From Chitinophaga pinensis (lineage in GTDB: Bacteria; Bacteroidota; Bacteroidia; Flavobacteriales_D; Crocinitomicaceae), in contig CALPMC020000001.1 of NCBI GenBank assembly GCA_943324565.2, forward strand, positions 1-64,000: a stretch of DNA of 64,000 nt, read 5' to 3'. Both the position numbers and the translations under genes were made by a program. The first letter of the stretch is position 1, and each line of letters begins with the position of its first letter. The notes beneath the pieces were generated by a model that had not been told where the DNA came from, did not search any database, and saw only the letters and a list, made by a program, of their open reading frames with translations. Shown piece after piece: positions 13,922 through 42,139 of this stretch.

Positions 13922-15022
13922 ATGATTAAATCAATTAGCCTTTCAATCGCCGTTATAACTTGTGCTTATTTACAAGCACAGGAAACTACTATTGCTCCAA
14001 AATATTCGAATGAGTTTTTATCTTTAGGTGTTGGCGCTGAATCATTTGGAATGGGAAATGCAGTTGTTGCAAGTACCGCTAATGCCAATTCAATTTATTG
14101 GAATCCAGCAGGTTTGACGAGCATAAATAAATGGGCTGAAGTTTCATTTATGCATTCTGAATATTTCGCGGGAATTGCTAAATACGACTACCTAGGAATT
14201 GCCCATTCTATTGACGATAAAAGTGCTTTAGGTTTTGCTGCTATTCGTTTTGGAGTTGATGACATTCCAAACACTACTCAACTTATTGATAACAATGGCG
14301 TTATAAATTATGACAATGTTACTTCTTTCACAGCGGGAGATTATGCATTTATGTTATCTTATGCTCGTAAATTAAATGTTCCGGGATTGAGTTTAGGTGG
14401 AACTACAAAAGTAATCTATCGAAAAGTTGGCGATTTTGCAAAATCTTTTGGCTTTGGAATCGATGCGGGACTGCAGTATCACTTACCAAAACATTGGAAA
14501 TTTGGATTAATGGCAAGAGATGTTAGTTCAACTTTTAATGCTTGGGTTTTTGAATTAGATGATGCGACGCGCGATGTATATATTAACACCGGAAATGCTA
14601 TTCCTCAAAATGGCTTAGAATTAACTTTACCAAGAATTATTCTAGCTGCTGCTGGAAATTTTGATATCGGTTCGAAAGGTTTAAACGCTGGAGGTGAAAT
14701 CGACTTTGACATTACAACAGACGGAAAAAGAAACGTTTTAATTAGTGCAAATCCTATTTCAATTGACCCACATGCAGGTTTATTCTTCGGTTTTAAAGAA
14801 TTAGTAAAAGTAAGAATGGGTGTTTCAAACGTTCAACAATTCACAAATCTTGACGATTCAAAATACTGGGGCATTCAACCAAACATTGGAATGGGCTTGG
14901 CTTTCAAAGGATTTTCATTGGATTATGCCTTCACACGACTTGGTGCTTCTGAGGCAAATTATTACACGCACATATTTTCAGTTCGCTTAAAATTAGATAA
15001 ACCTAAAAACGCAGTTAAATGA
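13922..15022 (+). CDS. PorV/PorQ-family outer membrane beta-barrel protein
   Basis: LSLGVGAESFGMGNAVVASTANANSIYWNPAGL is the typical N-terminus of the PorV/PorQ/UPF0164 family; overlaps the next gene by 4 nt. Confidence 0.8.
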   Translation: MIKSISLSIAVITCAYLQAQETTIAPKYSNEFLSLGVGAESFGMGNAVVASTANANSIYWNPAGLTSINKWAEVSFMHSEYFAGIAKYDYLGIAHSIDDKSALGFAAIRFGVDDIPNTTQLIDNNGVINYDNVTSFTAGDYAFMLSYARKLNVPGLSLGGTTKVIYRKVGDFAKSFGFGIDAGLQYHLPKHWKFGLMARDVSSTFNAWVFELDDATRDVYINTGNAIPQNGLELTLPRIILAAAGNFDIGSKGLNAGGEIDFDITTDGKRNVLISANPISIDPHAGLFFGFKELVKVRMGVSNVQQFTNLDDSKYWGIQPNIGMGLAFKGFSLDYAFTRLGASEANYYTHIFSVRLKLDKPKNAVK

Positions 15023-25300: not shown

Positions 25301-25570
25301 TAAATACAAATAGTATGTTATTCTATCAAATATCATGAGAAGAAAAAAGTTGAAGAAGGATTGCAAAAACTTGGTTTTAAGGTTTTTTACCGATACAAAC
25401 TAGTAAAACAATGGAGTAATCGAAAAAAAGGTTTCTATATCTTTAATTTCATGCACCTAATTTATTCATTCGTATGAGTTAGATTTATTAGTTTCAAAAG
25501 TTTAGGTATTAATTGGTGACTTTCATCAAAAATGTGAGTTACTGTGGCGAAGCCGTATTTATTAAGTTAT
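25301..25570 (+). pseudogene. Decayed NusG/RfaH-family (UpxY-like) transcription antitermination factor
   Basis: Frame from 25310: IVCYSIKYHEKKVEEGLQKLGFKVFYRYKLVKQWSNRKKGFYIFNFMHLIYSFV* (25310-25477), matching the NGN pattern WYxxYTxxxHEKKVxexLxKxGFxxFxP...W(S/D)RKK; remnants HSYELDLL and YCGEAVFIK (25540-25566) continue in other frames. Confidence 0.7.
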
Positions 25571-26551
25571 ATGAAAATAGTAGTTACTGGAGGAGCAGGA
25601 TTTATAGGTTCAAACACATGTGAGGCTTTTGTTAATGAAGGTTTAGAAGTTATTTGTCTTGATAATTTCTTAACTGGGAAAAGAGAAAACATTGCTCGTT
25701 TGATGGATTCTCCCTTATTTACCTTAGTTGAAGGAGATATTCGGAATTTAGAAGATTGTAAAAAAGCGGTTGAAGGTGCTGATTTAGTTTTACATTTGGC
25801 TGCTTTGGGTTCAGTTCCTCGTTCAATAGTTGATCCTATTACAACAAACAATATTAATATTGGTGGCACATTGAACATGTTAGTTGCAGCTAGAGATGCT
25901 GGCATCAAACGATTTGTTTATGCAGCAAGTTCTTCAACTTATGGTGACTCTGAAGTCCTACCGAAAGTGGAAAATGTTATTGGTCGGCCATTATCACCTT
26001 ATGCAATCACAAAATATGTTAGCGAACTTTACGCGGATGTTTTTGGTACAACGTATGGTCTAGATTGTATAGGTTTAAGATATTTTAATGTTTTTGGAAG
26101 AAGACAAGACCCAAATGGAGCTTATGCAGCTGTAATTCCAAAATTTACTGCCAATTTACTTCAAAAAGAATCTCCAGTTATCAATGGTGATGGGACTTTC
26201 TCTAGAGACTTTACTTATATAGATAATGTTATACAAATGAACAGATTGGCTTTATTTACAGAAAACAAAGCTGCCTTGAATGAAGTCTATAATGTTGCTT
26301 TTGGGGATAGTTCAACTTTGAATGAATTGTATTATGAATTGAGAACCTATTTGTCTGAGTATGATTCAAGTATTTCAACACTAGAACCAATTTACGGTCC
26401 TAATAGAAAAGGCGACATCCCTCATTCATTAGCATCTATTGATAAAGCAAAAAGTTTACTTGGATATGATCCAAAATTTTCATTGAAAACTGGATTGAAA
26501 GAAACAGTAAAATGGTATTGGGAGAATGTGGTTTCTTTAGATATTAAATAA
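25571..26551 (+). CDS. NAD-dependent epimerase, SDR family (UDP-GlcNAc C4-epimerase / WbpP-like)
   Basis: MKIVVTGGAGFIGSNTCE; SSTYGD, SPYAITKY, FNVFGRRQDPNGAYAAVIP; ORF-track GTG start at 25544 lies in the upstream pseudogene. Confidence 0.88.
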   Translation: MKIVVTGGAGFIGSNTCEAFVNEGLEVICLDNFLTGKRENIARLMDSPLFTLVEGDIRNLEDCKKAVEGADLVLHLAALGSVPRSIVDPITTNNINIGGTLNMLVAARDAGIKRFVYAASSSTYGDSEVLPKVENVIGRPLSPYAITKYVSELYADVFGTTYGLDCIGLRYFNVFGRRQDPNGAYAAVIPKFTANLLQKESPVINGDGTFSRDFTYIDNVIQMNRLALFTENKAALNEVYNVAFGDSSTLNELYYELRTYLSEYDSSISTLEPIYGPNRKGDIPHSLASIDKAKSLLGYDPKFSLKTGLKETVKWYWENVVSLDIK

Positions 26552-26595: not shown

Positions 26596-26646
26596 AAAAG
26601 AACACTGAAAGGAAAATCATAAGCCTTTTGTGTTCTTTTTTTGTTT
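26596..26646 (+). terminator. Strong intrinsic terminator between the epimerase and neuD-like gene
   Basis: AAAAGAACAC(tg)AAAGG ... CCTTT(t)GTGTTCTTTT followed by T run; outer 10-bp stem perfect. Confidence 0.8.
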
Positions 26647-26664
26647 TCAAATACAATTACTAAA

Positions 26665-27300
26665 ATGAAAAAAAAAACAAACGAAATAATTTTTATTGGA
26701 TATTCTGGTCATTCTTATACGGTTATTGATGTTGCCAAAAAAGCTGAATATGAACCAAAAGGGTATTTTGATTTAGTTGAGAACACACTAAATCCTTTTC
26801 AATTAACTTATTTAGGGGATGAAAGATTATTTGATTTTTCAAAAATCGGTTTCTTCGTGTTTCCTGCTGTTGGTGACAATTGGTTAAGAATGAAAATTCA
26901 CAAATTCATTCAGCAAAATAACTTAAACGAGTGCCAATTAATTCACCCTAAAGCAATCGTTGGTTTTGATGTTTCAATTGAGAATTCAACATTAATAGCA
27001 GCTGGCGTAATCATAAATCCACTTTGTAAAATCGGAGTTGGTTGCATTCTAAATACAGGCTGTATTTTAGATCATGAAGCTACCGTCGAAAATTACGTTC
27101 ATATCGGTCCTGGCGCTACATTAGCTGGAAATGTTTCTGTAGGTGAAGGTTCTTTTATTGGAGCAAATACGACAATCATTCAAGGAGTTACAATTGGCAA
27201 AAATTGTATAATAGGAGCCGGAAGTGTTGTTCTTAATAACGTTGATGATAATACAGTTATGGTTGGTAATCCTGCTAAATTTTTAAGACGAAATGACTAA
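26665..27300 (+). CDS. NeuD-family sugar O/N-acyltransferase (left-handed beta-helix)
   Basis: Hexapeptide repeats (VGEGSFIGANTTIIQGVTIGKNCIIGAGSVVLNNV); ATG 26665 preferred over TTG 26641. Confidence 0.85.
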   Translation: MKKKTNEIIFIGYSGHSYTVIDVAKKAEYEPKGYFDLVENTLNPFQLTYLGDERLFDFSKIGFFVFPAVGDNWLRMKIHKFIQQNNLNECQLIHPKAIVGFDVSIENSTLIAAGVIINPLCKIGVGCILNTGCILDHEATVENYVHIGPGATLAGNVSVGEGSFIGANTTIIQGVTIGKNCIIGAGSVVLNNVDDNTVMVGNPAKFLRRND

Positions 27301-28315
27301 AGTTTTTATTATTGCTGAGGCTGGAGTTAATCATAATGGTGATTTAGAAAAAGCTAAAAAAATGATTAAAGTTGCAGCAGAAGCAGGAGCAGATGTTGTG
27401 AAATTCCAAACTTTTAAAGCAGAAAAATTAGTTTCAAGTTCAGCAAAAAAAGCACAATATCAACAAAATAATATTGGAGAGACAGACGAGTCTCAATTTA
27501 ATATGTTAAAAAAACTAGAATTACCTTACGATTGGCATCAAGAACTAATCGATTATGCAAAAACACACAATATTCAATTTGCATCGACAGGTTTTGATGA
27601 GGAAAGTGTTGATTTTTTAGCAAATTTAGGACAATCATTTTTTAAAATCCCTTCAGGTGAAATAACTAATCTGCCTTATTTACAACACATTGCAAGCAAA
27701 AATAAGCCAACGATTCTATCAACAGGTATGGCGAATTTAGAAGAAATAACTGAAGCAGTTGAAGTTTTATTAAATGAAGGATTGACAAAAGAAAATATTA
27801 CGGTTTTACATTGCAATACAGAATACCCAACTCCAATGGAGGATGTAAATTTGAAGGCTATGCTTCACATCGAACAAGTTTTACAAGTTAAAATTGGTTA
27901 TTCTGATCACACGTTAGGAATCGAAGTTCCAATTGCGGCAACGGCTTTAGGTGCAACTGTAATTGAAAAACACTTTACTTTAGATAGAACATTGCCTGGT
28001 CCTGACCATTTAGCATCGTTGGAACCAACTGAATTAAAAGCAATGATTCAAGGGATTCGAAATATAGAAAAAGCATTGAGCGGTAATGGTATCAAATCAC
28101 CGAGTAAATCTGAAAGTAAAAACAAAATCATTGCAAGAAAAAGTATTTTATTGAATAAAGATTTAGTTGCTGGAACAATAATAAAGAAAGAAGATCTAGA
28201 AATTAAGCGACCAGGAAATGGAATCTCTCCGATGAAAATCAATGAGGTCATAGGAAAGGAATTGAAAACCGATAAACCGAATGAAACGATTTTACAATGG
28301 GGGGATTTAAAATGA
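27293..28315 (+). CDS. N-acetylneuraminate/legionaminate synthase (NeuB family)
   Basis: FIIAEAGVNHNGDLEKAKKMI, VKFQTFKAEKLV, GYSDHTLGIEVPIAA, EKHFTLDRTLPGPDHLASLEP, C-terminal SAF domain. Confidence 0.95.
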   Translation: MTKVFIIAEAGVNHNGDLEKAKKMIKVAAEAGADVVKFQTFKAEKLVSSSAKKAQYQQNNIGETDESQFNMLKKLELPYDWHQELIDYAKTHNIQFASTGFDEESVDFLANLGQSFFKIPSGEITNLPYLQHIASKNKPTILSTGMANLEEITEAVEVLLNEGLTKENITVLHCNTEYPTPMEDVNLKAMLHIEQVLQVKIGYSDHTLGIEVPIAATALGATVIEKHFTLDRTLPGPDHLASLEPTELKAMIQGIRNIEKALSGNGIKSPSKSESKNKIIARKSILLNKDLVAGTIIKKEDLEIKRPGNGISPMKINEVIGKELKTDKPNETILQWGDLK

Positions 28316-29421
28316 AAATAGGTGTTTTAACAAGTTCCCGAGCTGATTATGGTATTTACTTGCCTTTGTTAACAGCCATGAAAAATGACTCACGATTTGA
28401 GTTAAGTATCATTGCGTTTGGCTCTCATACGCGACATGAATTTGGAGAAACGATTAATTCAATTTATTCTGATTCATACAATGAAGTAATTGCAATTGAT
28501 AACCTTTTAGTTGGCGATTCACCAGAAATTATTGCTAAATCTTATGCAAATACAGTTTCCGTTTTTTCAGATTTCTGGAGCAAAAGAGGAGCTACATTTG
28601 ATTGGATTTTCTGTTTAGGCGACCGTTTCGAAATGGCAGCAGCAGTAAATGCAGGAATTCCCTTTCAACTGAAATTTGCACATTTTCACGCTGGAGAAAT
28701 AACCTTGGGCGCTATTGATAATATTTATAGACACCAATTAACCTTAGCTTCAGAATTACATTTTGTGAGTTTACCCATTAATGAACAAAAAGTCTGGGAA
28801 TTGACAGGAGTAAAAAATACAACAACTGTAATTGGTTCTCTAAGTCTTTTGAATCAAGTGAATTTACCTTTGCTTTCTGTTGATGAGTTTTATGAAAAAT
28901 GGCAAATAGACTTATCTATTCCTACGATTTTGATAACAGTAAATCCAGAAACTGTAAATTTTGAAAAAAATGAACTTTACGCTGAAATAACTGTAAAAGC
29001 GCTTAGAGATTTAGCAAACGAATTCCAATTAGTCATAAACCCACCGAATGCAGATACAAAGGGTTCAATTTTCAGGAAAGCATTTATTGACTTACAAAAA
29101 GAAATAAAAACCATAAAAATTATTGAAAGCTTTGGCTCACAATCTTATTTTTCTTGTATGAAACACGCTGCTTTAATGGTAGGTAATACTTCAAGTGGAA
29201 TTATCGAAGCTGCTAGTTTTCAGAAATATGTAATCAATATTGGAGATAGACAAAAAGGTAGATTTGCACCAGGAAATGTAATTGATATTCCATTCGACTA
29301 CGATCAAATCTGTGAAAAATCAAGAATTTATATAAATCAAACTTATTTAGGGGAAAATCCTTACTTCAATAAAGACGCAATTATATTGACAATCAACAAA
29401 CTTTTACAATGCGCACAATGA
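28312..29421 (+). CDS. UDP-N-acetylglucosamine 2-epimerase, hydrolysing (NeuC/LegG type)
   Basis: MKIGVLTSSRADYGIY; LGDRFEMAAA, HFHAGEITLGAIDNIYRHQLT, VGNTSSGIIEAA; overlaps neuB-like stop (ATGA). Confidence 0.92.
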   Translation: MKIGVLTSSRADYGIYLPLLTAMKNDSRFELSIIAFGSHTRHEFGETINSIYSDSYNEVIAIDNLLVGDSPEIIAKSYANTVSVFSDFWSKRGATFDWIFCLGDRFEMAAAVNAGIPFQLKFAHFHAGEITLGAIDNIYRHQLTLASELHFVSLPINEQKVWELTGVKNTTTVIGSLSLLNQVNLPLLSVDEFYEKWQIDLSIPTILITVNPETVNFEKNELYAEITVKALRDLANEFQLVINPPNADTKGSIFRKAFIDLQKEIKTIKIIESFGSQSYFSCMKHAALMVGNTSSGIIEAASFQKYVINIGDRQKGRFAPGNVIDIPFDYDQICEKSRIYINQTYLGENPYFNKDAIILTINKLLQCAQ

Positions 29422-30470
29422 TTTGGCAAAAACATTTAATATCAATAGAAACAACAATTAAAATTGCATTGGGACTATTGGACGATCTAGCACAAGATGC
29501 TTTACTTTTTATTGTTGACGATGAAAATAGGCTCATTGGTTCAATCACTGACGGAGATATTCGTCGTGGTCTTATGAAAGGTATTTTGATTGAAGAAAGC
29601 GTTTCAGCCGTTGCCAACTTGAAACCTAAATTTTTAATCCAAAATTCTGAAGAGTTTTTAAATCAGCTTATTGAATTCAGAGAAAAGAAGTTTAAGATTG
29701 TACCTATAGTTTCGGCCGATAAAAAACTTATCGATTGTATTAATTTCCGCCTAAAGAAAACAATTCTACCCATTGAATGTGTGATTATGGCTGGAGGCAA
29801 AGGTGAACGGTTACGTCCGTTAACCGAATCAACGCCAAAACCATTATTAAAGGTAGGAAACAAACCAATCATCGAATACAACATTGATTCCTTTAAAAAT
29901 CATGGAATTGATAAATGTTGGATTTCAATAAATTACCTAGGTGAACAATTGGAAATATTTTCAGAAGAAAAACAAACTGAATCTTTTGAAATAAAAACAA
30001 TTCGTGAAGATTATCCAATGGGAACAATTGGTTCAATTAAACTTATTGAACAATTTGATAAAGAAATAATTATGGTTTGTAATTCTGATTTATTGAACAA
30101 TGTAAATTTAGAAGCTTTTTATCTTGATTTTATAAATTCAAACACCGATTTATCAGTAGTTACAATCCCTTACACTGTAAATATCCCTTATGCTGTTTTA
30201 GAATTGGAAAATGAATATGTTACCAATCTCAAAGAAAAACCAAGTTTTACTTATTATTCAAATGGAGGAATTTATCTTTTCAAAAAAAGTTTACTTGATT
30301 TAATCCCTGAGAATTGTCCTTTTTCGGCAACAGATTTTATGGAAAAAATCATCGAAGAAAAATTGAAGATCAAAAGCTTTCCTCATCATGGTTATTGGTT
30401 AGATATTGGAAAACATGAAGATTATAAACGTGCAAATGAAGATATTAAAACATTTCAATTTAACTTATGA
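29418..30470 (+). CDS. CBS-domain sugar nucleotidyltransferase (PtmE-like, glucosamine-1-P guanylyltransferase candidate)
   Basis: N-terminal CBS pair (LIGSITDGDIRRGLMKG) plus MAGGKGERLRPLTESTPKPLLKVGNKPIIEY. Confidence 0.85.
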   Translation: MIWQKHLISIETTIKIALGLLDDLAQDALLFIVDDENRLIGSITDGDIRRGLMKGILIEESVSAVANLKPKFLIQNSEEFLNQLIEFREKKFKIVPIVSADKKLIDCINFRLKKTILPIECVIMAGGKGERLRPLTESTPKPLLKVGNKPIIEYNIDSFKNHGIDKCWISINYLGEQLEIFSEEKQTESFEIKTIREDYPMGTIGSIKLIEQFDKEIIMVCNSDLLNNVNLEAFYLDFINSNTDLSVVTIPYTVNIPYAVLELENEYVTNLKEKPSFTYYSNGGIYLFKKSLLDLIPENCPFSATDFMEKIIEEKLKIKSFPHHGYWLDIGKHEDYKRANEDIKTFQFNL

Positions 30471-31168
30471 TTCAAATTGAAAAATACTTAATTGTGATTC
30501 CAGCAAGAGGAGGTTCGAAGGGAATTCCGCGCAAAAATATAAAGCTATTGAATGGAAAACCTTTGATTCACTACACGATTGAAGCTGCCCAAAATATATT
30601 CGATTCTAGTAGAATTTGTGTGTCAACTGAAGATCTTGAAATCAACTCTATTGCTAAAAAATCAGGATTAATCTATTCTTACCTCCGTCCTGAAAAACTT
30701 TCAACTGACATTAGTTCTTCACGTGACGTAGTTCTAGATGTTATTGACCATTACCAAAACCAAGGTCCGGTATTTGAAACTATTATTTTATTACAACCAA
30801 CATCACCATTTAGAACTTCTAAGCATATTTTAGAGGCAATAAGTCTTTATGAATCTTCGGACTGTGAAATGGTTGTTAGTGTCAAAAAAACTAAAAGTAA
30901 TCCCTATTTTAATCTATTCGAAGAAAATGAATCTGGGAATTTAGAATTATCCAAAAAAGGAAATTTTACTTCTCGACAAAGCGTACCTATAACATACGAA
31001 TACAATGGTGCAATTTATATTTTCTCGAAAGAAACAATTCAATCGAAGCAATTTTCGGAGTTTGAAAGAATCAAAAAATATGAAATGTCAGCAATTGATT
31101 CAGTAGATTTAGATGAACCATTGGATTGGAAATTGGCAGAATTAATATTTAATGAAAAAACAGATTGA
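30467..31168 (+). CDS. Acylneuraminate cytidylyltransferase (NeuA/LegF type)
   Basis: VIPARGGSKGIPRKNIKLLNGKPLIHYTI; LLQPTSPFRTSKHI. Confidence 0.93.
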   Translation: MIQIEKYLIVIPARGGSKGIPRKNIKLLNGKPLIHYTIEAAQNIFDSSRICVSTEDLEINSIAKKSGLIYSYLRPEKLSTDISSSRDVVLDVIDHYQNQGPVFETIILLQPTSPFRTSKHILEAISLYESSDCEMVVSVKKTKSNPYFNLFEENESGNLELSKKGNFTSRQSVPITYEYNGAIYIFSKETIQSKQFSEFERIKKYEMSAIDSVDLDEPLDWKLAELIFNEKTD

Positions 31169-32622
31169 GTACTTTAAAGAATAAAACAATCAAAGCTTTT
31201 TCTTGGGATATCTTAGGACGAATTTTCATTCAAGGTAACAGCTTTATTGTATCTATTTTTCTTGCACGTTTACTTGGACCAGAGCAATTTGGACTTATAG
31301 CAACTGCTATGGCTTTCATAAGTATAAGTAGTGTTTTTATAGATATTGGATTTTCAGCAGCCTTGATTCAAAGTCAGAAAAACACACAGACTACTTACAG
31401 CTCAATCTTTTTCTTTAACATCTTTGCTGGAGCAGTATTAACACTTCTTACTTATCTAATTGCACCTTTGATCGGTAAGTTTTATGACAATTCGTTAGTA
31501 ACAGACTTGGTAAGATGGTTATCATTAGTTTTTGTTTTTAATTCTTTCAATCGTATTCAGAACACTATTCTCAACAAAGAATTAAATTTCAAAGCTTTGA
31601 CTTTAAGAACATTTATCGCTTCTATTGTAAGTGGAACTTTAGGTGTAGTTTGTGCCTATCAAGGCTGGGGAGTTTATAGTTTAGTCGTTCAAACCTTAAG
31701 TTTTGGTTTATTCAGTACCATTCTGCTATGGTCAACTTCTACATGGAAACCTAGCTTTCATTTTTCAATGGCTGAAGTAAAGAGACTTATGGGATTTAGT
31801 GTTTATGCCTTCTTAGAACGAATTTTAAATAATATTTTCATTCGATTAGATGTTTTATTACTTGCAAAAATATTTTCACCAATAACTGTAGGTTTTTACT
31901 CAAGATCTTCAACTTTAGTAGATCAAGTTACCAAATACACTTCAACCTCAATTATTCGTGTTTTATTTCCGGTTTTAAGTAAAGTTCAAGACAATCAAAA
32001 AGAATATGAAAAGATTTATTTTAGAATGTTTTCAATCATTTCTTTTTTAAGCTATGCTTTATCTGGATTACTTTATTTCATTGGTTGTGATATCATTCTA
32101 TTACTTTTTGGTAATAAATGGCACGCTTCTGTTCCAATTTTTCAAATATTAATAATTGCTAGTTGTAATATTCCTTTGAATTCTTTAATGTGGAATGCAC
32201 TAATGAGTAAAGGAAAAGCAAAGGAGAATTTTTATTATGGAATACTACGTAAATCAGTTGGATTGATTCCTTTCATTTTCGCCTTCTACTTTGACATTTG
32301 GTGGTTTACTGTAACTTGGGTCGTATCCAAATTTATCATCTCTTTCTTAAATATTATAGTTCTAAAAAAACACTCAAATCTATCTATTTCAAAACACCTA
32401 TACTATTTACTAAACGGATTTATAATTTTAATACCTGGCTTTTTAATCTTTGAATATTTAGAATTAAATCTGTTCGCAACAAGAGTTATTTTTGCAATAT
32501 CCTATTTACTCGTTTATTTATTTGCAAACTGGGTAATTAAAAACGAAGGTTTAATCTATATTATCAGTACAATTTCAACTATAAAAGGAGCACTTAAGAA
32601 ACGATTAGTTAGTAAATCCTAA
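31165..32622 (+). CDS. Lipopolysaccharide/polysaccharide flippase (Wzx-like, MOP superfamily)
   Basis: FIVSIFLARLLGPEQFGLIATAMAFISISSVFIDIGFSAALIQ; 12-14 TM pattern. Confidence 0.9.
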   Translation: MSTLKNKTIKAFSWDILGRIFIQGNSFIVSIFLARLLGPEQFGLIATAMAFISISSVFIDIGFSAALIQSQKNTQTTYSSIFFFNIFAGAVLTLLTYLIAPLIGKFYDNSLVTDLVRWLSLVFVFNSFNRIQNTILNKELNFKALTLRTFIASIVSGTLGVVCAYQGWGVYSLVVQTLSFGLFSTILLWSTSTWKPSFHFSMAEVKRLMGFSVYAFLERILNNIFIRLDVLLLAKIFSPITVGFYSRSSTLVDQVTKYTSTSIIRVLFPVLSKVQDNQKEYEKIYFRMFSIISFLSYALSGLLYFIGCDIILLLFGNKWHASVPIFQILIIASCNIPLNSLMWNALMSKGKAKENFYYGILRKSVGLIPFIFAFYFDIWWFTVTWVVSKFIISFLNIIVLKKHSNLSISKHLYYLLNGFIILIPGFLIFEYLELNLFATRVIFAISYLLVYLFANWVIKNEGLIYIISTISTIKGALKKRLVSKS

Positions 32623-32643
32623 CCTACCTACACTATATTTATA

Positions 32644-33642
32644 ATGATACTCAACAAACTCTCCATTTACAAACCCATACTTGAGGTTGAAAATGCGGTA
32701 GTACTTAACCCGAAAGTTAGTGTAATTCTTTTAACTTATAATCATGAAAATTATATTGCTCAAAGTATAGAGAGTATATTAAATCAAGAAACTGATTTTG
32801 AATTTGAAATTCTTATTGGTGAAGACGACTCTACTGATGATACAAGAAAAATTTGTTTGGAATATGCACAAAAGTATCCTTCAAAAATACGTTTGTTTCT
32901 TCATCATAAAGAAAACAAAATCGCTGCCAATGGAGTTCCAAACGGTAAATTCAACCTACTTTACTCAATTGAAATGTGCAGAGGTAGCTATATTGCAACA
33001 TGTGAAGGTGATGATTATTGGCATCTTAAACAAAAACTTCAAATTCAAACTGATTTCATGGAAAACAATCCAGAATTCACAACAATTGCAACGGATTTTA
33101 CGAAATTGTATGTTCACAATAATTTAAAAAAACATGCATTCAATAAAATAGTAAAGATGGAATTAAAAGATAGAACTATTGAACCAATTAATATCTTCAA
33201 AACTCAAATTAAAATAATGAGAATGTGTACTTATTTTTTTAAAGCTGAACTTTTGAAAAGTTTTTATCCGTTAATTATGGAGACAGCTGGGGATATTCAA
33301 ATTTTATTGCACGCCTTTCAATTTGGAAAAATCAAATATTTAGCAATTGACAGTTCAACTTACAGAGTTATGAATGAATCAGCCAGTAAAACAAAAGACT
33401 ATTCAAAAAGACAACGGTTTTTATGGAATTACATTGTTTTTATAGAGAAAGCAATTACCCACTATCACTTAGATAGTAAAGAACAAACTTATCTCAAAAA
33501 ACAAAAGATGATGTATCAAATTCGGGAATATTCAGAACGAAAACAATTTTTAAAGACTAATTTGATTGGATTAAAAATGATTGCTTATGGTTATTTCTCA
33601 AAAAATATTTTTCGAAATATCAATCATTCATTACGAAAATAG
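32644..33642 (+). CDS. Glycosyltransferase family 2 protein
   Basis: KVSVILLTYNHENYIAQSIESIL; EILIGEDDSTDDT; CEGDDYW. Confidence 0.9.
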   Translation: MILNKLSIYKPILEVENAVVLNPKVSVILLTYNHENYIAQSIESILNQETDFEFEILIGEDDSTDDTRKICLEYAQKYPSKIRLFLHHKENKIAANGVPNGKFNLLYSIEMCRGSYIATCEGDDYWHLKQKLQIQTDFMENNPEFTTIATDFTKLYVHNNLKKHAFNKIVKMELKDRTIEPINIFKTQIKIMRMCTYFFKAELLKSFYPLIMETAGDIQILLHAFQFGKIKYLAIDSSTYRVMNESASKTKDYSKRQRFLWNYIVFIEKAITHYHLDSKEQTYLKKQKMMYQIREYSERKQFLKTNLIGLKMIAYGYFSKNIFRNINHSLRK

Positions 33643-34686
33643 ATGAGTAACAACTATTATTTTGTTCGAACACCTCTTCAATATTTGAACGCTTTTGAAG
33701 CAAGAAATAACGATAAATTCAAATCAGGAGCTCATCATTTAATCGTTTTAAGTGATTTTCATCGCTCTATATCACAAATAGAATCAATCATTGAAAACGA
33801 TTTTTGGTCTAGTATTGATTTCCCTTGGAAAGAATTTAATACTAAAAAAAATAATCCTATTTTCAATGCGATTAATATATTAAAACGCAAAAGAAAACTA
33901 GACAAAATTATCTCTTATATAAAACCATTTGATTTAATTTTTTGGGGGAATTTAAACGCAAATTGGTTTTTTTATCTCTATCAGAAAACAAATTCTAACA
34001 TCTGTATTTTAGATGATGGTTTTGTTTCGATTAATACCATATTAAATACTGATTTAAAAGTCTTAAAATCTAAACTTCTAAGCAGTAAATTAGGGAAAAT
34101 AGAACGATTTATACTGAAACTAAATTACAACATCAATTGGGAAAGAATTATGTTTTTTACCAATTTCGATTTAAAAACTAGCACAAAAAATATTGAACAG
34201 CACAACTATGAATTCTTAAGTAAACAATTTAAAATTAACACAATAGAAAATAAAGTTTACTTTATTGGACAGCCTTTGATTTTTCAGAAAATGATGAAAA
34301 AGGAGGTATATGTTTCATTAGTAGATTCAATTATTCGCCATTATCAATCCAAAGACTTTAATTGTTTTTACATTCCACATCGTTCAACCACTTTAGATTA
34401 CATTCCAAATCATTGGTCAACAAAAACTTTTAACAAACCTATTGAGTGTATTTTGTTTGATGAATCAATTGAAAAACCATTGGTTTTTGCATCCTTTTAT
34501 TCCTCGGCATTGTATAATATTGCAATGATGGATAAAAATTCTGTATTCAAATATGATTATTGGCAATTTGACGAAAGTGATTTAATAAACTTTAATTTTA
34601 AAACAATAAGTGATGTCTATAAATTTGTTCAATCACAAAATAAAGACAACGTTAATGTAAGACATAAATCGGTAGTTAATGCCTAG
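33643..34686 (+). CDS. Uncharacterised protein, candidate bacterial sialyltransferase-like glycosyltransferase
   Basis: N-terminus YYFVRTPLQYLNAFEA; ILDDGF, FYIPHRST and FYSSALYN resemble the D/E-D/E-G, HP and S-S/T motifs of bacterial sialyltransferases. Confidence 0.5.
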   Translation: MSNNYYFVRTPLQYLNAFEARNNDKFKSGAHHLIVLSDFHRSISQIESIIENDFWSSIDFPWKEFNTKKNNPIFNAINILKRKRKLDKIISYIKPFDLIFWGNLNANWFFYLYQKTNSNICILDDGFVSINTILNTDLKVLKSKLLSSKLGKIERFILKLNYNINWERIMFFTNFDLKTSTKNIEQHNYEFLSKQFKINTIENKVYFIGQPLIFQKMMKKEVYVSLVDSIIRHYQSKDFNCFYIPHRSTTLDYIPNHWSTKTFNKPIECILFDESIEKPLVFASFYSSALYNIAMMDKNSVFKYDYWQFDESDLINFNFKTISDVYKFVQSQNKDNVNVRHKSVVNA

Positions 34687-35920
34687 AGAAAAACTCGATA
34701 ATATCTTTTACTTTTTTCTTTTCATTCCAATTCTGAATGTTTTATCCTCAATTGCAACACCTTTTTATCCTGGGGCATTAAATCCTGGGGTTATTCGTGG
34801 AGGAATTTTGAGCTTATTTCTAATTTGGTTTTTAATAAATAAATATAAAAGTAAACCCGACACAAATCTAGTTGTTGGCTACACTTTTTACATCTTTCTT
34901 CTTTGTTGGTTCTCTGAAGAATCTTCAACATCTTTCTATATTTTCAATAAATTTGCTATTTCAAGTTTGATGTTCATTCTTGGTTTTTATTATATACAAA
35001 GTCCACTTCGCTTTTTATATTTACAAAGAGCTTTTTTAATTAGTATTGTTTGTATTATCATTTACTTTGCTTTATCGAATGTATTCGGAGTTGGTAAACA
35101 AAGTTACCAAGATGATTCAGTGTTTTTTGGAGAATCTGGCGTAAACATTACTAAATCAATTGTGATATTTATAATAGGAATTCCACTCTATCTAAGATTT
35201 GAAAACAAAAATCAATATAAAACAATAGCGTTGATTGCGTTATTGATTGGTGTAATTACTGTTTTTTTAGGTATGAAACGATCTGCTATTTTAGCTATGA
35301 GTTTTGGTTTTTTCTTTTATTCTTTGTTAACTCCTTATAAAACAAGACTTATCAGAAATGTTCCTTTAATTTTATTAGTGCTTTTTTTAGCTTCACCCTA
35401 TTATGTTCCGATTATCGAAAAAAGATTTGAGGCCAGGCGAGGTAGGGTTTCAATGACAGTTAATCAATTAAAAGAAAACGAAAGTGAAGGTCGACTTTTA
35501 GAAATTCAATATACAATAGAACAAACATTTGAACGTCTTGATCGTGTCTTTTTTGGTTTTAATGTATTCATGAAAAAAGACTATCAAGGACGAAAAAGAA
35601 TGCTTCATATAGATTATACAAACATGCTTGGAGGAGCTGGTATAATTGGTTTAGTCTTATTTATTGGAGTTTATATTAAAATAATTAAGCGGCAATTGTT
35701 TTATAAAACAGTTCTAGGAAATAGCTTGCTTTCGAAAGAAATATTTGCCACTACAGCTTCTTTGGTTGCAGTTCAAGCTTTTCTTTCGATTGGAGGAACA
35801 ATGCAAGGTGTAAATCAAAGAGGTTATATACTTTTGTATCTTGGAGCATTAATGGGGTTATCCTTATCTCTAATAAAACTAAAAATCACACAAAATAGTG
35901 CAAATAAACAAAGTCAATAA
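34679..35920 (+). CDS. O-antigen polymerase/ligase-like membrane protein (Wzy candidate)
   Basis: About 10 hydrophobic segments; central soluble loop; position in locus. Confidence 0.65.
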   Translation: MPREKLDNIFYFFLFIPILNVLSSIATPFYPGALNPGVIRGGILSLFLIWFLINKYKSKPDTNLVVGYTFYIFLLCWFSEESSTSFYIFNKFAISSLMFILGFYYIQSPLRFLYLQRAFLISIVCIIIYFALSNVFGVGKQSYQDDSVFFGESGVNITKSIVIFIIGIPLYLRFENKNQYKTIALIALLIGVITVFLGMKRSAILAMSFGFFFYSLLTPYKTRLIRNVPLILLVLFLASPYYVPIIEKRFEARRGRVSMTVNQLKENESEGRLLEIQYTIEQTFERLDRVFFGFNVFMKKDYQGRKRMLHIDYTNMLGGAGIIGLVLFIGVYIKIIKRQLFYKTVLGNSLLSKEIFATTASLVAVQAFLSIGGTMQGVNQRGYILLYLGALMGLSLSLIKLKITQNSANKQSQ

Positions 35921-37172
35921 CGCTTTATTCAGTCTATTTCATCATGATATATTAGAAGCCTTAAACGAAAATTCACATTTTTCTGATAAACTTTGGGCTA
36001 GCCTTCAACAACCTATATCTGTTTCAGAAAGAGAAATAGGGGATGAAATTTTATCTATAATTAAAGAAAAAACTAGAAATATTGATGACCATGAGATCGG
36101 ATTAACTTTAACTGGTGGATTTGATTCAAGAGTTATTTTGGCTGCCCTTTTGCACCTTGGAATTAAACCCGTATGTTTTACTTACGGATACGAAAAAAAC
36201 AGAGATATTGAAATTGCTAGAACTATTTGCGAAAAGTTTGGATTGACTTATTACAATGTTGCAAATTCTGCTCCTACTAAGGAATGGTATTCAAAATGGG
36301 TAAACGAAACAGTTTCCCTAGACAATGGAAATGCACATCTTCACAGAGCACATCGCACAGCTGCAATTTCCGAATTAACACAAAAACATCCGCTTAAAGT
36401 ATTGTTTACAGGACATTTGGGTGGAGAAAACATTAGAGGACTTTCTTACAATGATTATTTTGCCTCGTCTTTTTTTGAAGATTTTAATGAACTAAATTTA
36501 TCCTTGGATAAAAATATCAAAAAGCATTTGGATTGTTATTTTATCAAGTTAAATGAAAGTGAATTTTCAGAATTAAAAGTTAAAATTCAATCTTTACCTT
36601 GGTTGACTGAAAATACGGATTACAATAAATTATATTTTGTTAATGAGCTTGTAGGTAAAATTCACCATTATCAAGATATTCGATTGTATTCAAAATTTGT
36701 AGATACAGTTGTGCCCGTTTTTTTACAGCCTACTTATCTAGAAAAACTTTCTCTTTCTAAACATCATTTCATGCGCAAATTAGATAAAAAGGTTAGTTTT
36801 TTGGAACACCCTAAACTTTATTGTCAATTAATTGGAAGTTTCTACCCTGCCTTACAAGAAATTGAATTATCAAATGGTTATGCTCCAAAAGACTTTTTGA
36901 AGGGGAAAATGAATTATGTTGTCAAACGAATTTGGAATAAATATTTCAAAAAAAATAAAAACTATTCTTCCTTTTCTTATACAGATTGGTATATTGATTT
37001 TGTAAAAGAAAAATCAACTGTGATTTCAGAAGAAATTTGGGATATTTACGACAAAGAATCGTATTTTCATCATTTAAATTCAACCGCATTAAGAACAAAC
37101 GAAGGATTTTGGCATAAGTTTTCTAATCCAATCTTTTTTGATTTAATAAATAAAAATAAACAACTTCCGTGA
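35898..37172 (+). CDS. Asparagine-synthetase-like (PP-loop ATPase) domain protein lacking an N-terminal glutaminase domain
   Basis: LTLTGGFDSRVILAALLHLGIKPVCFTYG = SGGxDS-type PP-loop; no N-terminal Cys nucleophile. Confidence 0.75.
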   Translation: MQINKVNNALFSLFHHDILEALNENSHFSDKLWASLQQPISVSEREIGDEILSIIKEKTRNIDDHEIGLTLTGGFDSRVILAALLHLGIKPVCFTYGYEKNRDIEIARTICEKFGLTYYNVANSAPTKEWYSKWVNETVSLDNGNAHLHRAHRTAAISELTQKHPLKVLFTGHLGGENIRGLSYNDYFASSFFEDFNELNLSLDKNIKKHLDCYFIKLNESEFSELKVKIQSLPWLTENTDYNKLYFVNELVGKIHHYQDIRLYSKFVDTVVPVFLQPTYLEKLSLSKHHFMRKLDKKVSFLEHPKLYCQLIGSFYPALQEIELSNGYAPKDFLKGKMNYVVKRIWNKYFKKNKNYSSFSYTDWYIDFVKEKSTVISEEIWDIYDKESYFHHLNSTALRTNEGFWHKFSNPIFFDLINKNKQLP

Positions 37173-38224
37173 AATTTGTCATCTTAACTAACGAAATTGC
37201 GGGCTCCGAATTAAAATGGAAAATAGCATGTGAAAAAATTAATGCAGAACATATCGTAGTTGATATTAGTAAAGCAAATTGGCAGGATTTAATTGAAAAT
37301 TATCAACCAAACATTTTACTCACAAGACCAGCAGGATTAACCTCACCATTTAAAATTCTTTACGATGAACGTTTGGAAATCCTGGTAAATGAGCTGGATT
37401 ATTTTTGTTTTCCAAGCTTAAAGGAAGTTTTGATTTATGAAAATAAAAAATACTTTTCTTATTGGTTAAAAGCTAATAAAATCGCACATCCAAAAACAGA
37501 AGTTTTTTACTATAAAAAAGAAGCATTAGAATGGTCACAATATTCTGAAGTACAACTACCAATTGTTGCTAAAACGAATATTGGTGCATCAGGAAGTGGT
37601 GTTGTTATATTGGAAACATCGGTGGAATTACAATCGTATATTAAATCTACTTTTTCAGGAAAAGGAGCTACAAAACGTATTGGTCCGAATCTTAAAAAAG
37701 GACGCATCTTACAAAGAGTAATAGGGTTACTTTCAAAACCAAAAGCCTTATTAAAAAAAATAGACGTTTACAAGGCTAGAGCTTTAGATATTCAAAAAGA
37801 CTTTGTTTTATTTCAAGAATACATTCCTCACGTATTCGAATGGCGTGTTGTAAGAATGGGAGATTCCTTTTTTGCACATAAAAAACTGTTGCTCGGTAAA
37901 ATGACAAGTGGCTCATTACTGAAAGATTACGGAAACCCTCCTTTAAAATTGTTAGATTTTGTCAAAGCCATTACTGATAAACATCAATTATATTCTCAAG
38001 CTGTTGATGTTTTTGAATCACCTCAAGGATATTTAGTGAATGAAATGCAATGTATTTTCGGACAATCTGATACATTTCTTATGAAAGTTGATGATTCTAT
38101 TGGTAGATATTTATTTGAAAATGGAGAATGGAAATTTGAAGTTGGAGATTTTAATACCAATGAATCCTATGATTTAAGATTACAAACTGCAATTAAGTGT
38201 TATCAAAAAAAAATAAAAGCTTAA
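37169..38224 (+). CDS. ATP-grasp domain protein (RimK-like)
   Basis: LPIVAKTNIGASGSGVVIL (ATP-grasp phosphate loop), FQEYIPHVFEWRVVRMGD, YLVNEMQCIFG. Confidence 0.75.
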   Translation: MKFVILTNEIAGSELKWKIACEKINAEHIVVDISKANWQDLIENYQPNILLTRPAGLTSPFKILYDERLEILVNELDYFCFPSLKEVLIYENKKYFSYWLKANKIAHPKTEVFYYKKEALEWSQYSEVQLPIVAKTNIGASGSGVVILETSVELQSYIKSTFSGKGATKRIGPNLKKGRILQRVIGLLSKPKALLKKIDVYKARALDIQKDFVLFQEYIPHVFEWRVVRMGDSFFAHKKLLLGKMTSGSLLKDYGNPPLKLLDFVKAITDKHQLYSQAVDVFESPQGYLVNEMQCIFGQSDTFLMKVDDSIGRYLFENGEWKFEVGDFNTNESYDLRLQTAIKCYQKKIKA

Positions 38225-38225
38225 T

Positions 38226-39149
38226 TTGAAAGTCTTATTCGTTTGTAGTGGTAATAAATCACAAGGAAAGCCAAGTGTTCTTGTGAAAAATCAAGGGGAT
38301 AGCCTCATTGAAATAGGAGTTCAAATTAGATACACGCTTATCGCTCAAAAAGGAATATTTGGTTACTTAAAAGCTGTAGTTCCAATTTATAAATCAATAA
38401 AGAAAGAACAAGTTCAAATCGTACATGCACATTATTCACTAACTGCTTTTGCAGCGAGTTTGGCAGTACTTTTAATTTTTAGAAATCGTCCTAAATTGGT
38501 TGTATCCTTAATGGGAAGTGATTCGCAAATAAAAGGTTGGAAGAGAAAACTCACGAATTACTTTTCGGAAAAATTATGGTTTTCTACAATAGTGAAAAGT
38601 CCCAAAATGGCAATTGATCTTGGCTTAAAAAAGTTTATTGTTATACCAAATGGTGTACAAATACAGAAATTCATAAATAATGAATCAATAATAGATAATA
38701 AAGTTCTTTTTGCTGCTGATCCTTCAAGAGAATCGAAAAATTTCGAATTGGCAAAAAAAGCGATTAAAATTGCAAAAAAAACTATTACAACAATCAATTT
38801 GGAGGTTATTTACAATGTTGAACATACTGAAATTATTAAAGAAATTAAATCCTCGGCTTGTATTTTATCAACTTCAAAATGGGAAGGTTCGCCAAATATT
38901 ATCAAAGAATCTTTGGCTTGTAATCGTCCAATCGTTGCTACAAATGTTGGTGATGTTACTTGGTTACTAGAAAATGTAGAAGGGTGTTTTGTTACTAACT
39001 TTGATGCTGAATTAATTGCGCAATCAATTTTAAAGGCTTTGACTTATAACCATGAAAAAAAATACACCAAAGGATTAGATAAAGTTAAAGAATTACAAAT
39101 TGATTCTCAGTCAATTGCAAAAAGAATCTTAAAGATTTATGGATACTAA
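38226..39149 (+). CDS. Glycosyltransferase family 4 (group 1) protein
   Basis: VHAHYSLTAFAASLA, VIPNGVQ, EGSPNIIKESLACNRPIVATNVGDV; TTG start. Confidence 0.85.
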   Translation: MKVLFVCSGNKSQGKPSVLVKNQGDSLIEIGVQIRYTLIAQKGIFGYLKAVVPIYKSIKKEQVQIVHAHYSLTAFAASLAVLLIFRNRPKLVVSLMGSDSQIKGWKRKLTNYFSEKLWFSTIVKSPKMAIDLGLKKFIVIPNGVQIQKFINNESIIDNKVLFAADPSRESKNFELAKKAIKIAKKTITTINLEVIYNVEHTEIIKEIKSSACILSTSKWEGSPNIIKESLACNRPIVATNVGDVTWLLENVEGCFVTNFDAELIAQSILKALTYNHEKKYTKGLDKVKELQIDSQSIAKRILKIYGY

Positions 39150-40302
39150 ACCTGGCGTAATTATCATTGAAGGACATGTTCAGGGTTTGTCTAATGTTCG
39201 AGCTTTAGGTGAACATGGTATTCCAGTTTGGGTTATTGATAAATCGAATTGCGTGGCTCGCTATTCAAAGTATTGTCAAAATTTCGCTATTTGCCCTGAA
39301 TATGAAAGCACCTCTTTTATTGATTTTTTGATTCAACTTTCTGAAAAACATAATCTTAAAAATTGGTTGCTTTTACCATCAAATGATCATGTCGTTTACA
39401 CTATTGCGAAGAATAAAGTAAAACTCGGTAACTATTTCAACCTCATTACAGAGAATTTAGCTACGGTTTTGAAAATTTATGATAAAGTTGAATTATTGAA
39501 AATTTCCCAAGAAATTGGTGTGGATTATCCGTTGTATGAAACTTACAGTGAGCTTTCAGAATGTAAGACAACTAATTTAGAATTTCCTGTCATAACAAAA
39601 GGTAATAATGGCTTGAGTTTTTACAAAAAAACAAAAACTAAAGTGGTACTTTCCAATTCAATCGAAGAATTAGAAAATAATTTAAAAAATTTAGAATGTA
39701 AAATACTTTTAAGAGAAACATTTACCCAAGAAATTCTTCCTTTTAGTGAGGAACATAGAACAATTTCATTTACATGTTTTTCAGTTAAAGGTGAAATCAA
39801 AGCACATTGGGTAGGTGTCAAACTTCGTGAGCACCCACTTCGGTTTGGTACTGCAACATTAGCGGAAAGTATTGAAAAAGAAGAATTGTTATTACCATCT
39901 AAAAAGCTAATACAAACACTCCAATATACCGGGATTTGTGAAATCGAATATCTATTAGATATTAGAGATAATAAATATAAACTAATAGAAGTCAATGCAA
40001 GATCATGGCTTTGGGTTGGACTCGCAAATGCTTGTGGTGTGAATTATGCAAAACTTGCTTATGATTATGTGAATGGTTTTGAAATTCAAGAGATAAAAAG
40101 CTATCAAAAAGGTATAGTATGGTTTAATCCAATTACAAATATATTTTTCGGAATTAAAGGACTTTTCTTGGGTCGTGTTAAACTAAAATCAATTTTTGAA
40201 AACCTATCAAAAAAGAAAATTAACGCACTTTTTCAAAAAGGAGATAGAAGGCCTGGATTCATGTATTTAATTCTTTTATTTAAAATTTTTAAAACAAGAT
40301 GA
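39139..40302 (+). CDS. ATP-grasp domain protein (carbamoyl-phosphate-synthase-like/PylC-like)
   Basis: FPVITKGNNGLSFYKKTKTKVV; ICEIEYLLDIRDNKYKLIEVNARSWLWVGLANACGVNYA. Confidence 0.75.
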   Translation: MDTKPGVIIIEGHVQGLSNVRALGEHGIPVWVIDKSNCVARYSKYCQNFAICPEYESTSFIDFLIQLSEKHNLKNWLLLPSNDHVVYTIAKNKVKLGNYFNLITENLATVLKIYDKVELLKISQEIGVDYPLYETYSELSECKTTNLEFPVITKGNNGLSFYKKTKTKVVLSNSIEELENNLKNLECKILLRETFTQEILPFSEEHRTISFTCFSVKGEIKAHWVGVKLREHPLRFGTATLAESIEKEELLLPSKKLIQTLQYTGICEIEYLLDIRDNKYKLIEVNARSWLWVGLANACGVNYAKLAYDYVNGFEIQEIKSYQKGIVWFNPITNIFFGIKGLFLGRVKLKSIFENLSKKKINALFQKGDRRPGFMYLILLFKIFKTR

Positions 40303-41381
40303 CAGTACTTTTCGTTACAGGACACCCTGCACAAATTCATAATTTCAGAATTGTAAAGCATTTATTAGAAGAAAAAGGGCATAAGGTAGTTTGGGTTTCA
40401 AGTAAGAAAGACATCTGTTTTGAACTTTTAGAACTCTATGATATTAAAGCCTATGAAATAACTCGACCTACAAAAGGATTTGTATCAAAATTTAAGGCGC
40501 TAATTGTTAATTCTGTTATTATTCTCAAAATTATCCGTAAAGAAAAAGTTGATTTTATAGTTTCTCGAGTATCGCCATTTGCAACTGTTGCAGGTAAATT
40601 ATTAAATAAGAAACATATTGCTCTTGCCGACACTGAAAGTTCTGGAATATACGATACAATTTTTACAAAATTTTTAGATTCATTAATAACTTCAACTACT
40701 TTTAAAAGAGATTTACGAAAAGATCAAGTAAGAATTAAAAGTAACATTGAGCTCTTTTATTTGCATCCAAATCATTTTAAACCGAATGATTCAATATACG
40801 ATTACTTAAAAATTTCGAAAGAAGAAAAATTTGTTATTCTTAGATTTGTAAGTTGGAAAGCTTATCACGACAAAGGCTTAACTGGTTTTAACGATGAGAA
40901 TAAAATTAAGGCAGTTAGAGAATTTTCCAAATTTGCCAAAGTTTTCATCTCTGCCGAAGGAAGTTTACCTAAAGAAATTGAAAAACATCGTATTAAAATA
41001 CCTTTTGACAAAATGCACGATGCCCTTAATTATTCTTCATTGTTTTTCGGTGAAGGTGCTTCAATGGCAGCAGAAAGTGCAGTACTTGGTTCTCCAGCAA
41101 TTTTCTTAAACGATAATTGGTCTGGTAATGCTTTTGATTTAATGAAACACGAACTGTTTTATTCTTATAAAAGTAACAATGAGGATCAAATAAATGCAAT
41201 TGAAAAAGGTGTTGAATTATTGAGTAACCTGAATTTAAAACTTGAAATGCAAAACAAATTAGCCAATTACTTTGCGGATAAAATTGATGCTTCAAGTTTT
41301 TTAACCTGGTATATCGAAGAATTTCCTCAATCAAAAAAAATAATAGCTCAAAATTCAAAGTATCAAAACAATTTTAAATAA
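40299..41381 (+). CDS. DUF354-like (glycosyltransferase-B-fold) protein
   Basis: VTGHPAQIHNFRIVKHLLEEKGHKVVWVSSKK; SLFFGEGASMAAESAVLGSPAIFLN. Confidence 0.75.
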   Translation: MTVLFVTGHPAQIHNFRIVKHLLEEKGHKVVWVSSKKDICFELLELYDIKAYEITRPTKGFVSKFKALIVNSVIILKIIRKEKVDFIVSRVSPFATVAGKLLNKKHIALADTESSGIYDTIFTKFLDSLITSTTFKRDLRKDQVRIKSNIELFYLHPNHFKPNDSIYDYLKISKEEKFVILRFVSWKAYHDKGLTGFNDENKIKAVREFSKFAKVFISAEGSLPKEIEKHRIKIPFDKMHDALNYSSLFFGEGASMAAESAVLGSPAIFLNDNWSGNAFDLMKHELFYSYKSNNEDQINAIEKGVELLSNLNLKLEMQNKLANYFADKIDASSFLTWYIEEFPQSKKIIAQNSKYQNNFK

Positions 41382-42139
41382 TGGATTTTACTGTTCGAAA
41401 ATATAAAGAACTTCTAAATTCAATGAAAGATGCTGGATATGAATTTCAAACCTATAGAGAATTCATAAATGCACCGAAGAGTAAAGTTATAGTCCTAAGA
41501 CACGATGTTGATTTAAAACCAGAAAATTCATTGTGCTTTGCTGAAATTCAAGCTACTATAGGTGTTAAAGGCGTTTATTATTTTAGAGCAGTTAAAGAAA
41601 GTTGGAACGAAGACATTATTAAAAGAATAAGTTCATTGGGTCATGAAATTGGTTATCACTATGAAAATATAACGACAACCAAAGGTAATTTGAACTTAGC
41701 TTTTGATGATTTTAAGAAGAACTTAGAACTTCTGCGAACATTAGCACCAGTTGCTACAATTTGTATGCATGGAAGTCCAATGTCAAAATACGATAGTAAA
41801 GACCTTTGGAAAACCAACGATTATAAATCTTTAGGAATTATTGCCGAGCCTTATTTTGACACCAATTTCAACAAAGTTTTTTATTTAACAGATACAGGAA
41901 GAACTTGGAATAGTGAAAAATTCAGTGTTAGAGATAAAGTAAACACAACATTCACTCAAAAATTCGCTAACACTAATCAAATTATAGATGCTTTCGTTCA
42001 AAAAAAGTTGCCGAGTCAAATTATGTTTACTTTTCATCCTCAGAGATGGAATGATAATATAATAAAATGGCTAGTTGAACTAATTAATCAAAATGCCAAA
42101 AATTCGGTTAAACGTTTATTGATTAAAATAAGAAAGTAA
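41381..42139 (+). CDS. Polysaccharide deacetylase-like protein
   Basis: VIVLRHDVDLKPENS, SLGHEIGYHYE, CMHGSPMSKYD, FTFHPQRW. Confidence 0.7.
   Translation: MDFTVRKYKELLNSMKDAGYEFQTYREFINAPKSKVIVLRHDVDLKPENSLCFAEIQATIGVKGVYYFRAVKESWNEDIIKRISSLGHEIGYHYENITTTKGNLNLAFDDFKKNLELLRTLAPVATICMHGSPMSKYDSKDLWKTNDYKSLGIIAEPYFDTNFNKVFYLTDTGRTWNSEKFSVRDKVNTTFTQKFANTNQIIDAFVQKKLPSQIMFTFHPQRWNDNIIKWLVELINQNAKNSVKRLLIKIRK

Follow-up and report, generated by a model that had tools for sequence, protein, structure and literature searches.

The six-gene module and its enzymes

We analyzed a 64,000-nucleotide stretch, referred to as the window, which represents contig 1 of a Bacteroidota genome of 3.17 Mb, and focused on six consecutive genes (35898-42139, all on the + strand) at the end of a polysaccharide operon. 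They encode a PP-loop protein similar to the asparagine synthetase AsnB, two ATP-grasp ligases, two proteins resembling glycosyltransferases and a putative deacetylase. The positions and tight spacing given by an earlier sequence-only reading were correct, neighboring genes overlapping by 1-11 nt or being separated by a 1-nt gap:

35898..37172, +: AsnB-like PP-loop protein of 424 amino acids (aa) (Pfam Asn_synthase, TGGFDSR motif, no glutaminase domain)
37169..38224, +: ATP-grasp ligase 1, RimK/LysX/ArgX-like (Pfam RimK and structure model; K135, D280, E292 and Q294 intact)
38226..39149, +: GT4 glycosyltransferase (Pfam; mostly paired with ATP-grasp ligase 1)
39139..40302, +: ATP-grasp ligase 2, PRK12767/L-amino-acid-ligase-like (CPSase_L_D2; E270, E284 and N286 intact; its slot holds FemAB/GNAT in related loci)
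40299..41381, +: DUF354-like GT-B protein, probable glycosyltransferase (via an intermediate homologue)
41381..42139, +: CE4/NodB-like putative N-deacetylase (weak PgdA similarity; WbmS/VimE-like by context)

The operon starts at 25544 and the module forms its end, the start of the AsnB-like open reading frame (ORF) overlapping the polymerase gene wzy by 23 nt; the six genes are intact and translationally coupled behind wzy. Terminators were predicted less often than in shuffled sequence, with none located in the module, and promoter scans are uninformative in this phylum. In comparison with two relatives, all six genes showed dN/dS of 0.05-0.11, and the module is under purifying selection.

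The AsnB-like protein matched Pfam Asn_synthase with 27.1 bits (cut-off 21) and has no glutaminase domain. Residues T72, G73, G74 and D76 of its PP-loop (TGGFDSR, an SGGxDS-type ATP site) were invariant in 13 sequences, as was the GGE motif (G175, G176 and E177) among 13 AsnB-like relatives. Full-length relatives in other families retain an N-terminal domain that is degenerate and has no catalytic Cys (Cys2), and the window protein matched these Cys-less sequences with E values of 2e-69 to 2e-10, in contrast to 3e-5 or worse for the canonical MCGI-type AsnBs of neighboring loci. By these alignments, the protein belongs to a separate, Cys-less AsnB-like family predicted to be independent of glutamine.

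ATP-grasp ligase 1 matched Pfam RimK narrowly (21.5 bits, cut-off 21), and its K135, D280, E292 and Q294 were invariant in 13 of 13 aligned rows. The structures nearest to its AlphaFold2 (AF2) model (predicted local distance difference test, pLDDT, 84.8) were ArgX/LysX bound to LysW, D-Ala-D-Ala ligase (Ddl) and RimK. ATP-grasp ligase 2 matched the CPSase_L_D2 ATP-grasp family with 26.7 bits (cut-off 19.8), with E270, E284 and N286 invariant in 15 rows, and its AF2 model (pLDDT 91.2) was nearest to the CPS-like split protein 2pn1, biotin carboxylases and L-amino-acid ligases. With RimK, LysX, ArgX and the L-amino-acid ligases the two proteins have in common the fold and the metal and ATP residues, and peptide-bond-type ligases were the top structural matches of ATP-grasp ligase 1; however, identity to the top matches was only ~10-18%, and the window families are separate and have no close relative with a solved structure. 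Judged from alignments and models, which resemble peptide and amino-acid ligases (LysX/ArgX/Ddl and BL00235-type), both proteins have the carboxylate-amine ligase fold and its ATP/Mg residues, and one or both may form amides.

The domain calls of the sequence-only reading held for the remaining genes as well, in two cases with qualification. The GT4 scored 38.9 bits in Pfam. The fifth ORF had no direct Pfam match, and we call it DUF354-like because an intermediate, L069:13728-14837, scored 183 bits with its hidden Markov model and itself matches PF04007. The CE4-like protein showed weak similarity to PgdA; within its family, HDxD, H93, E95, HGS, H130 and H219 were invariant in 24 sequences.

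Conservation and the variable slot of related loci

We found the AsnB-like gene in 7 of 37 congeneric genomes, the window included, an eighth copy being cut by a contig end. The order wzy-AsnB-RimK-GT4-ATPgrasp2-DUF354-CE4 was identical in all 7 carriers, thus matching in six further congeners, and also in the public metagenome-assembled genome (MAG) L021. The genes between the flippase and wzy vary within the genus, L013 having an aminotransferase, a WbqC-like protein and sulfotransferases, whereas the module is constant. Another public MAG (L022/L012, CAMAZP010000001.1), labeled Chitinophaga pinensis, grouped in the genus of the window in our survey, and the label appears wrong.

Among 396 genomes of the phylum, strong matches outside the genus were found in 4 genomes for the AsnB-like protein, 5 for the RimK-like protein and 14 for the CE4. 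The carriers of the first were nested within those of the second (hypergeometric P about 5e-9) and these within the CE4 carriers (P 3e-8). In four distant Bacteroidota genomes, from different families of the phylum, a Cys-less AsnB-like protein, a RimK-like ATP-grasp, a second ATP-grasp, DUF354 and CE4 cluster together. The class and phylum surveys covered a few hundred genomes each; the contig search with a single-protein query gave only two near relatives, and an alignment query would reach further. NeuB had no match inside the module clusters outside the genus, and nonulosonate synthesis is therefore not part of the module: the link to nonulosonates is a trait of the genus.

We compared 45 loci centered on CE4. 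DUF354 was present in 39 of them, and a recurring frame consists of ATP-grasp 1, GT4, a variable enzyme, DUF354 and CE4. The variable slot is taken by ATP-grasp 2 in 13 loci and by FemAB/GNAT in 11 (two of them weak), and no locus had both; FemAB was found neither in the window module nor in the other ATP-grasp-2 loci. As seven of the loci belong to the genus of the window and share ancestry, this mutual exclusivity is suggestive only. Locus L152 contains a RimK-like protein of the window family (476 bits), a GT4, a canonical AsnB, FemAB, DUF354, a UDP-GlcNAc 2-epimerase-like ORF and CE4, and thus bridges the ATP-grasp and FemAB types of locus. Of the loci without either slot enzyme, L095 and L096 have an acyltransferase-like protein and MaoC, and others a bi-domain oxidoreductase and an alpha-toroid protein. 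The latter recur as a pair beside CE4, the oxidoreductase combining zinc alcohol dehydrogenase and Gfo/Idh domains and the alpha-toroid-like protein having ~390 aa:

L029:4713-8023, L030:5215-8510 and L032:11213-14502: oxidoreductase/alpha-toroid pair, found also in L141, L143, L148, L153, L154 and L156

By reading of the sequences, L142 carries HisH/HisF with a PP-loop amidotransferase, and HisH/HisF partners are present in L071 too. Proteins of the phosphatidylserine-decarboxylase family were seen in glycan loci close to ATP-grasp 2, DUF354 and CE4 (L030:2215-3024, L093:16636-17445 and L032:15710-16528; the Pfam run for this family covered L030 and L093 only), and these could decarboxylate an attached amino acid.

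Known pathways and the proposed reaction

The attachment of amino acids to bacterial surface sugars is understood in a few systems only. In Porphyromonas gingivalis and Tannerella forsythia, the sugar linking type IX secretion cargo is 2-N-seryl-3-N-acetylglucuronamide (PMC7468200, PMC13086638). The P. gingivalis enzymes are VimE, a putative deacetylase that takes off an N-acetyl group, the GNAT/FemAB-like VimA, which adds serine, and the AsnB enzyme WbpS, which makes the uronamide (PMC7468200); the linker sits on a Wzy-type O-polysaccharide (PMC13086638). Similarly to this Wbp/Vim pathway, the window has in one operon a CE4-like putative deacetylase, a candidate amino-acid-joining enzyme, a glycosyltransferase and a partner of the AsnB family, together with Wbp-like genes in the genome, a Wzy-type polysaccharide and a Bacteroidota host with PorU. 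It differs in having two ATP-grasp ligases and no FemAB/GNAT VimA, and an AsnB-like protein without glutaminase. In sister loci, the CE4-like family has FemAB and Wbp genes as neighbors, its likeness to VimE coming from this context only, and Wbp-type genes adjoin CE4 in L072, L076 and L030/L100; by analogy, the combination of FemAB and CE4 in the sister loci follows the VimA/VimE logic of the linking sugar. The module may work like the Wbp/Vim pathway, but we do not file it under that name because a VimA-type transferase and a glutaminase-bearing WbpS are absent from it.

The Wbp-like genes form a single run on G000:C14, consisting of a TviB/WbpA-like 6-dehydrogenase, a Gfo/Idh protein, a hexapeptide acetyltransferase and a DegT aminotransferase. 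Homology and gene order, with scores under the equivalog cut-offs, suggest that these correspond to WbpA, WbpB, WbpD and WbpE.

The uronamide-forming AsnBs of the TIGR03108 type, WbpS and WbqG, are likewise PP-loop enzymes within polysaccharide loci, but their canonical members have the Cys2 glutaminase and the window protein, coming from the Cys-less family, scored 13.1 bits against a cut-off of 816.9. The N-acetyl sugar amidotransferases WbpG, WbuX and PseA also modify amino sugars with a PP-loop enzyme, but have HisH/HisF-like partners; HisH/HisF genes were not found in the window operon, TIGR03573 was not among the matches of the window protein, and a PseA/WbuX assignment was rejected for this lack of a model match. 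The module is thus neither a canonical AsnB nor a PseA/WbuX system. ATP-grasp enzymes of glycan-modification clusters are known from Pfam ATPgrasp_ST and from SO_3265 of the Shewanella sfm flagellin cluster (PMC3765264), for which we found no description of the combination with AsnB-like, CE4 and DUF354 proteins. The suggestion that the module is an undescribed system is partly borne out: we found no open-access paper with the combination of ATP-grasp, AsnB and glycan genes, though a description in a subscription journal is possible, and the Wbp/Vim pathway achieves a step of this kind by means of different enzymes (PMC7468200).

The reading that we favor, with about even confidence, is a tailoring cassette that N-deacetylates and then aminoacylates a residue of the Wzx/Wzy surface polysaccharide, with a further amide step by the AsnB-like enzyme. 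The CE4-like protein would strip the N-acetyl from an amino sugar, an N-acetylhexosamine (HexNAc) or HexNAc(3NAc)A residue, and free the amine. One or both ATP-grasp ligases, whose fold and sites were described above, would convert an amino acid or a comparable carboxylate to an acyl-phosphate and join it to this amine, standing in for the FemAB/GNAT transferase, so that the cassette would work like VimE and VimA, and possibly WbpS. The AsnB-like protein would then adenylate a carboxylate, either that of the uronate or that of the added amino acid, to make a second amide with an amine not derived from glutamine, and the GT4 and DUF354-like protein would put the modified sugar and its neighbor onto the lipid-linked unit. 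We consider a 2-acetamido or 2,3-diacetamido uronic acid the most probable sugar, given the Wbp-like genes of the genome and the TviC-like epimerase of the operon; the genes are present, and their use for this residue is presumed. We infer the substrates, the order of the steps and the amino acid from the genes, folds and co-occurrence observed.

As a type of chemistry, the amide or amino-acid decoration proposed by the sequence-only reading has good support. That reading had named two findings that would refute it, and neither came true: the genes do co-occur, in congeners and across other families of the phylum, and alignments and structure models show that the ATP-grasp and PP-loop sites are not degraded. 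Its nonulosonate part proved unnecessary, as module clusters outside the genus are without neuB. Several observations weigh against the favored cassette. The model of ATP-grasp ligase 2 is as carboxylase-like as it is ligase-like, the usual HxxxH metal motif is missing its second His in the CE4-like protein, and the count behind the FemAB/ATP-grasp exclusivity ignores shared ancestry. WbpB, which 19 of the 21 congeners examined carry, is close to universal across the genus with or without the module and does not track CE4 outside it; its co-occurrence was thus dismissed as support for a diacetamido uronate substrate, and only the in-cluster cases count. By sequence reading, the G123 and G241 clusters also resemble an N-acetyl-L-fucosamine locus, and the sugar may therefore not be a uronate everywhere.

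Alternatively, the PP-loop and ATP-grasp enzymes could activate the C6 carboxylate of a uronate or the C1 carboxylate of a nonulosonate and couple it with ammonia, an amino acid or an amine, with the CE4 and DUF354 proteins acting elsewhere in the repeat. Carboxylated sugars are at hand, given the nonulosonate genes and TviC-like 4-epimerase of the operon and the WbpA-like and Ugd dehydrogenases of the genome; uronamides are made by the AsnB-type WbpS/WbqG (PMC7468200) and probably also in the b-Cool locus (PMC12407052), and the phosphatidylserine-decarboxylase-like genes of L030, L032 and L093 would fit a decarboxylation that turns a serine amide into an ethanolamine amide. As such carboxyl-side amidation leaves unexplained both the near-constant pairing with CE4 and DUF354 and the replacement between FemAB and ATP-grasp, and the AsnB-like protein, lacking a glutaminase, is from a family distinct from canonical AsnB, we consider it rather unlikely. 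Here we differ from the sequence-only reading: the loci point to the amine side, with CE4 followed by acyl or aminoacyl transfer by FemAB or ATP-grasp, at least as much as to amidation of a uronate or nonulosonate carboxyl. We regard as least probable that there is no joint reaction and that independent serotype genes travel together, the ATP-grasp and AsnB-like enzymes acting on separate residues or in non-amide chemistry: polysaccharide loci are mosaic, the interval from flippase to wzy varies between congeners and carboxylases also use ATP-grasp folds, but the six-gene order is kept while its neighbors vary, and the genes are found together again in other families.

A bolder possibility is that the cassette, by the chemistry favored above, makes the linking sugar onto which the sortase PorU attaches type IX cargo, as an ATP-grasp version of Wbp/Vim. 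This would agree with the Wbp-like set of the genome, the VimE/VimA-like gene pairs of sister loci, the presence of PorU in all 22 genomes checked that carry the module or CE4 relatives, the Wzy-type O-polysaccharide carrying the P. gingivalis linker (PMC13086638) and the differences in linking sugars between species, the pathway to the alanine-bearing linker of Prevotella intermedia being not known (PMC11969387). However, PorU is near-universal here and hence does not discriminate, the patchy spread of the module, in only ~8 of 37 congeners, speaks against a housekeeping role, and the cargo gene at 42211 is not adjacent in G003; we consider a linking-sugar role unlikely. We rate slightly higher, and still as unlikely, the wider proposal that an ATP-grasp route to amino-acid-bearing linking sugars replaces VimA-type transferases in many Bacteroidota and that the AsnB-like enzyme would build a new glycan-linked dipeptide or lactam.

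Returning to the deacetylation-aminoacylation cassette, the recurrent gene set with its swap between FemAB and ATP-grasp predicts which of its enzymes would add the amino acid. The analysis also defines a distinct glutaminase-less AsnB-like family and offers CE4/DUF354 as a marker pair for finding such glycans.

Neighboring genes

Directly 3' of the module lies a gene for a type IX-sorted protein with a Por_Secre_tail (42211-44424, -). In several congeners, CE4 is flanked by its homologs or by other type IX-like proteins, but not in G003, and this adjacency was therefore discarded as evidence for a link to secretion. Elsewhere in the window (13922-20190, +), a PorV-like outer-membrane protein stands beside a C25 peptidase of 1723 aa that matches PorU in part; several congeners have similarly long proteins with such partial matches, and the canonical PorU is encoded elsewhere, on contig G000:C41.

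The 5' part of the operon consists of the following genes:

25544..26551, +: TviC/WbpP-like UDP-HexNAc(A) 4-epimerase, operon gene 1, uronate route (381 bits)
26641..31168, +: nonulosonate genes, encoding PglD-like acetyltransferase, NeuB, NeuC, PtmE-like and NeuA-like proteins
31165..34686, +: flippase, GT2 and a 347-aa ORF
34679..35920, +: Wzy-like polymerase, immediately 5' of the AsnB-like gene throughout the genus

After the 4-epimerase, the order is PglD-, NeuB-, NeuC-, PtmE- and NeuA-like genes, flippase, GT2, the 347-aa ORF and wzy. A NusG/UpxY-like antiterminator of ~175-188 aa (by sequence reading) lies 5' of the operon next to pcm in the congeners L106, L107, L102 and L103, and is missing at the corresponding place in the window. 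Annotation of the first gene (25544) as LegB was rejected, as the TviC model gave 381 bits in comparison with 139 bits. LegB and LegC are absent from the operon, but LegC scored over its cut-off on another contig (G000:C21), and the argument from their absence for N-acetylneuraminic acid in place of legionaminic acid thus does not hold. The PtmE-like protein (29409-30470, +) combines CBS and nucleotidyltransferase domains, an architecture typical of GDP-linked legionaminate routes. The 347-aa ORF beside wzy (33643-34686, +) had no Pfam match and is 33-73% conserved in the genus; read from its sequence, it is possibly a GT52-type nonulosonate or sialyltransferase-like transferase.

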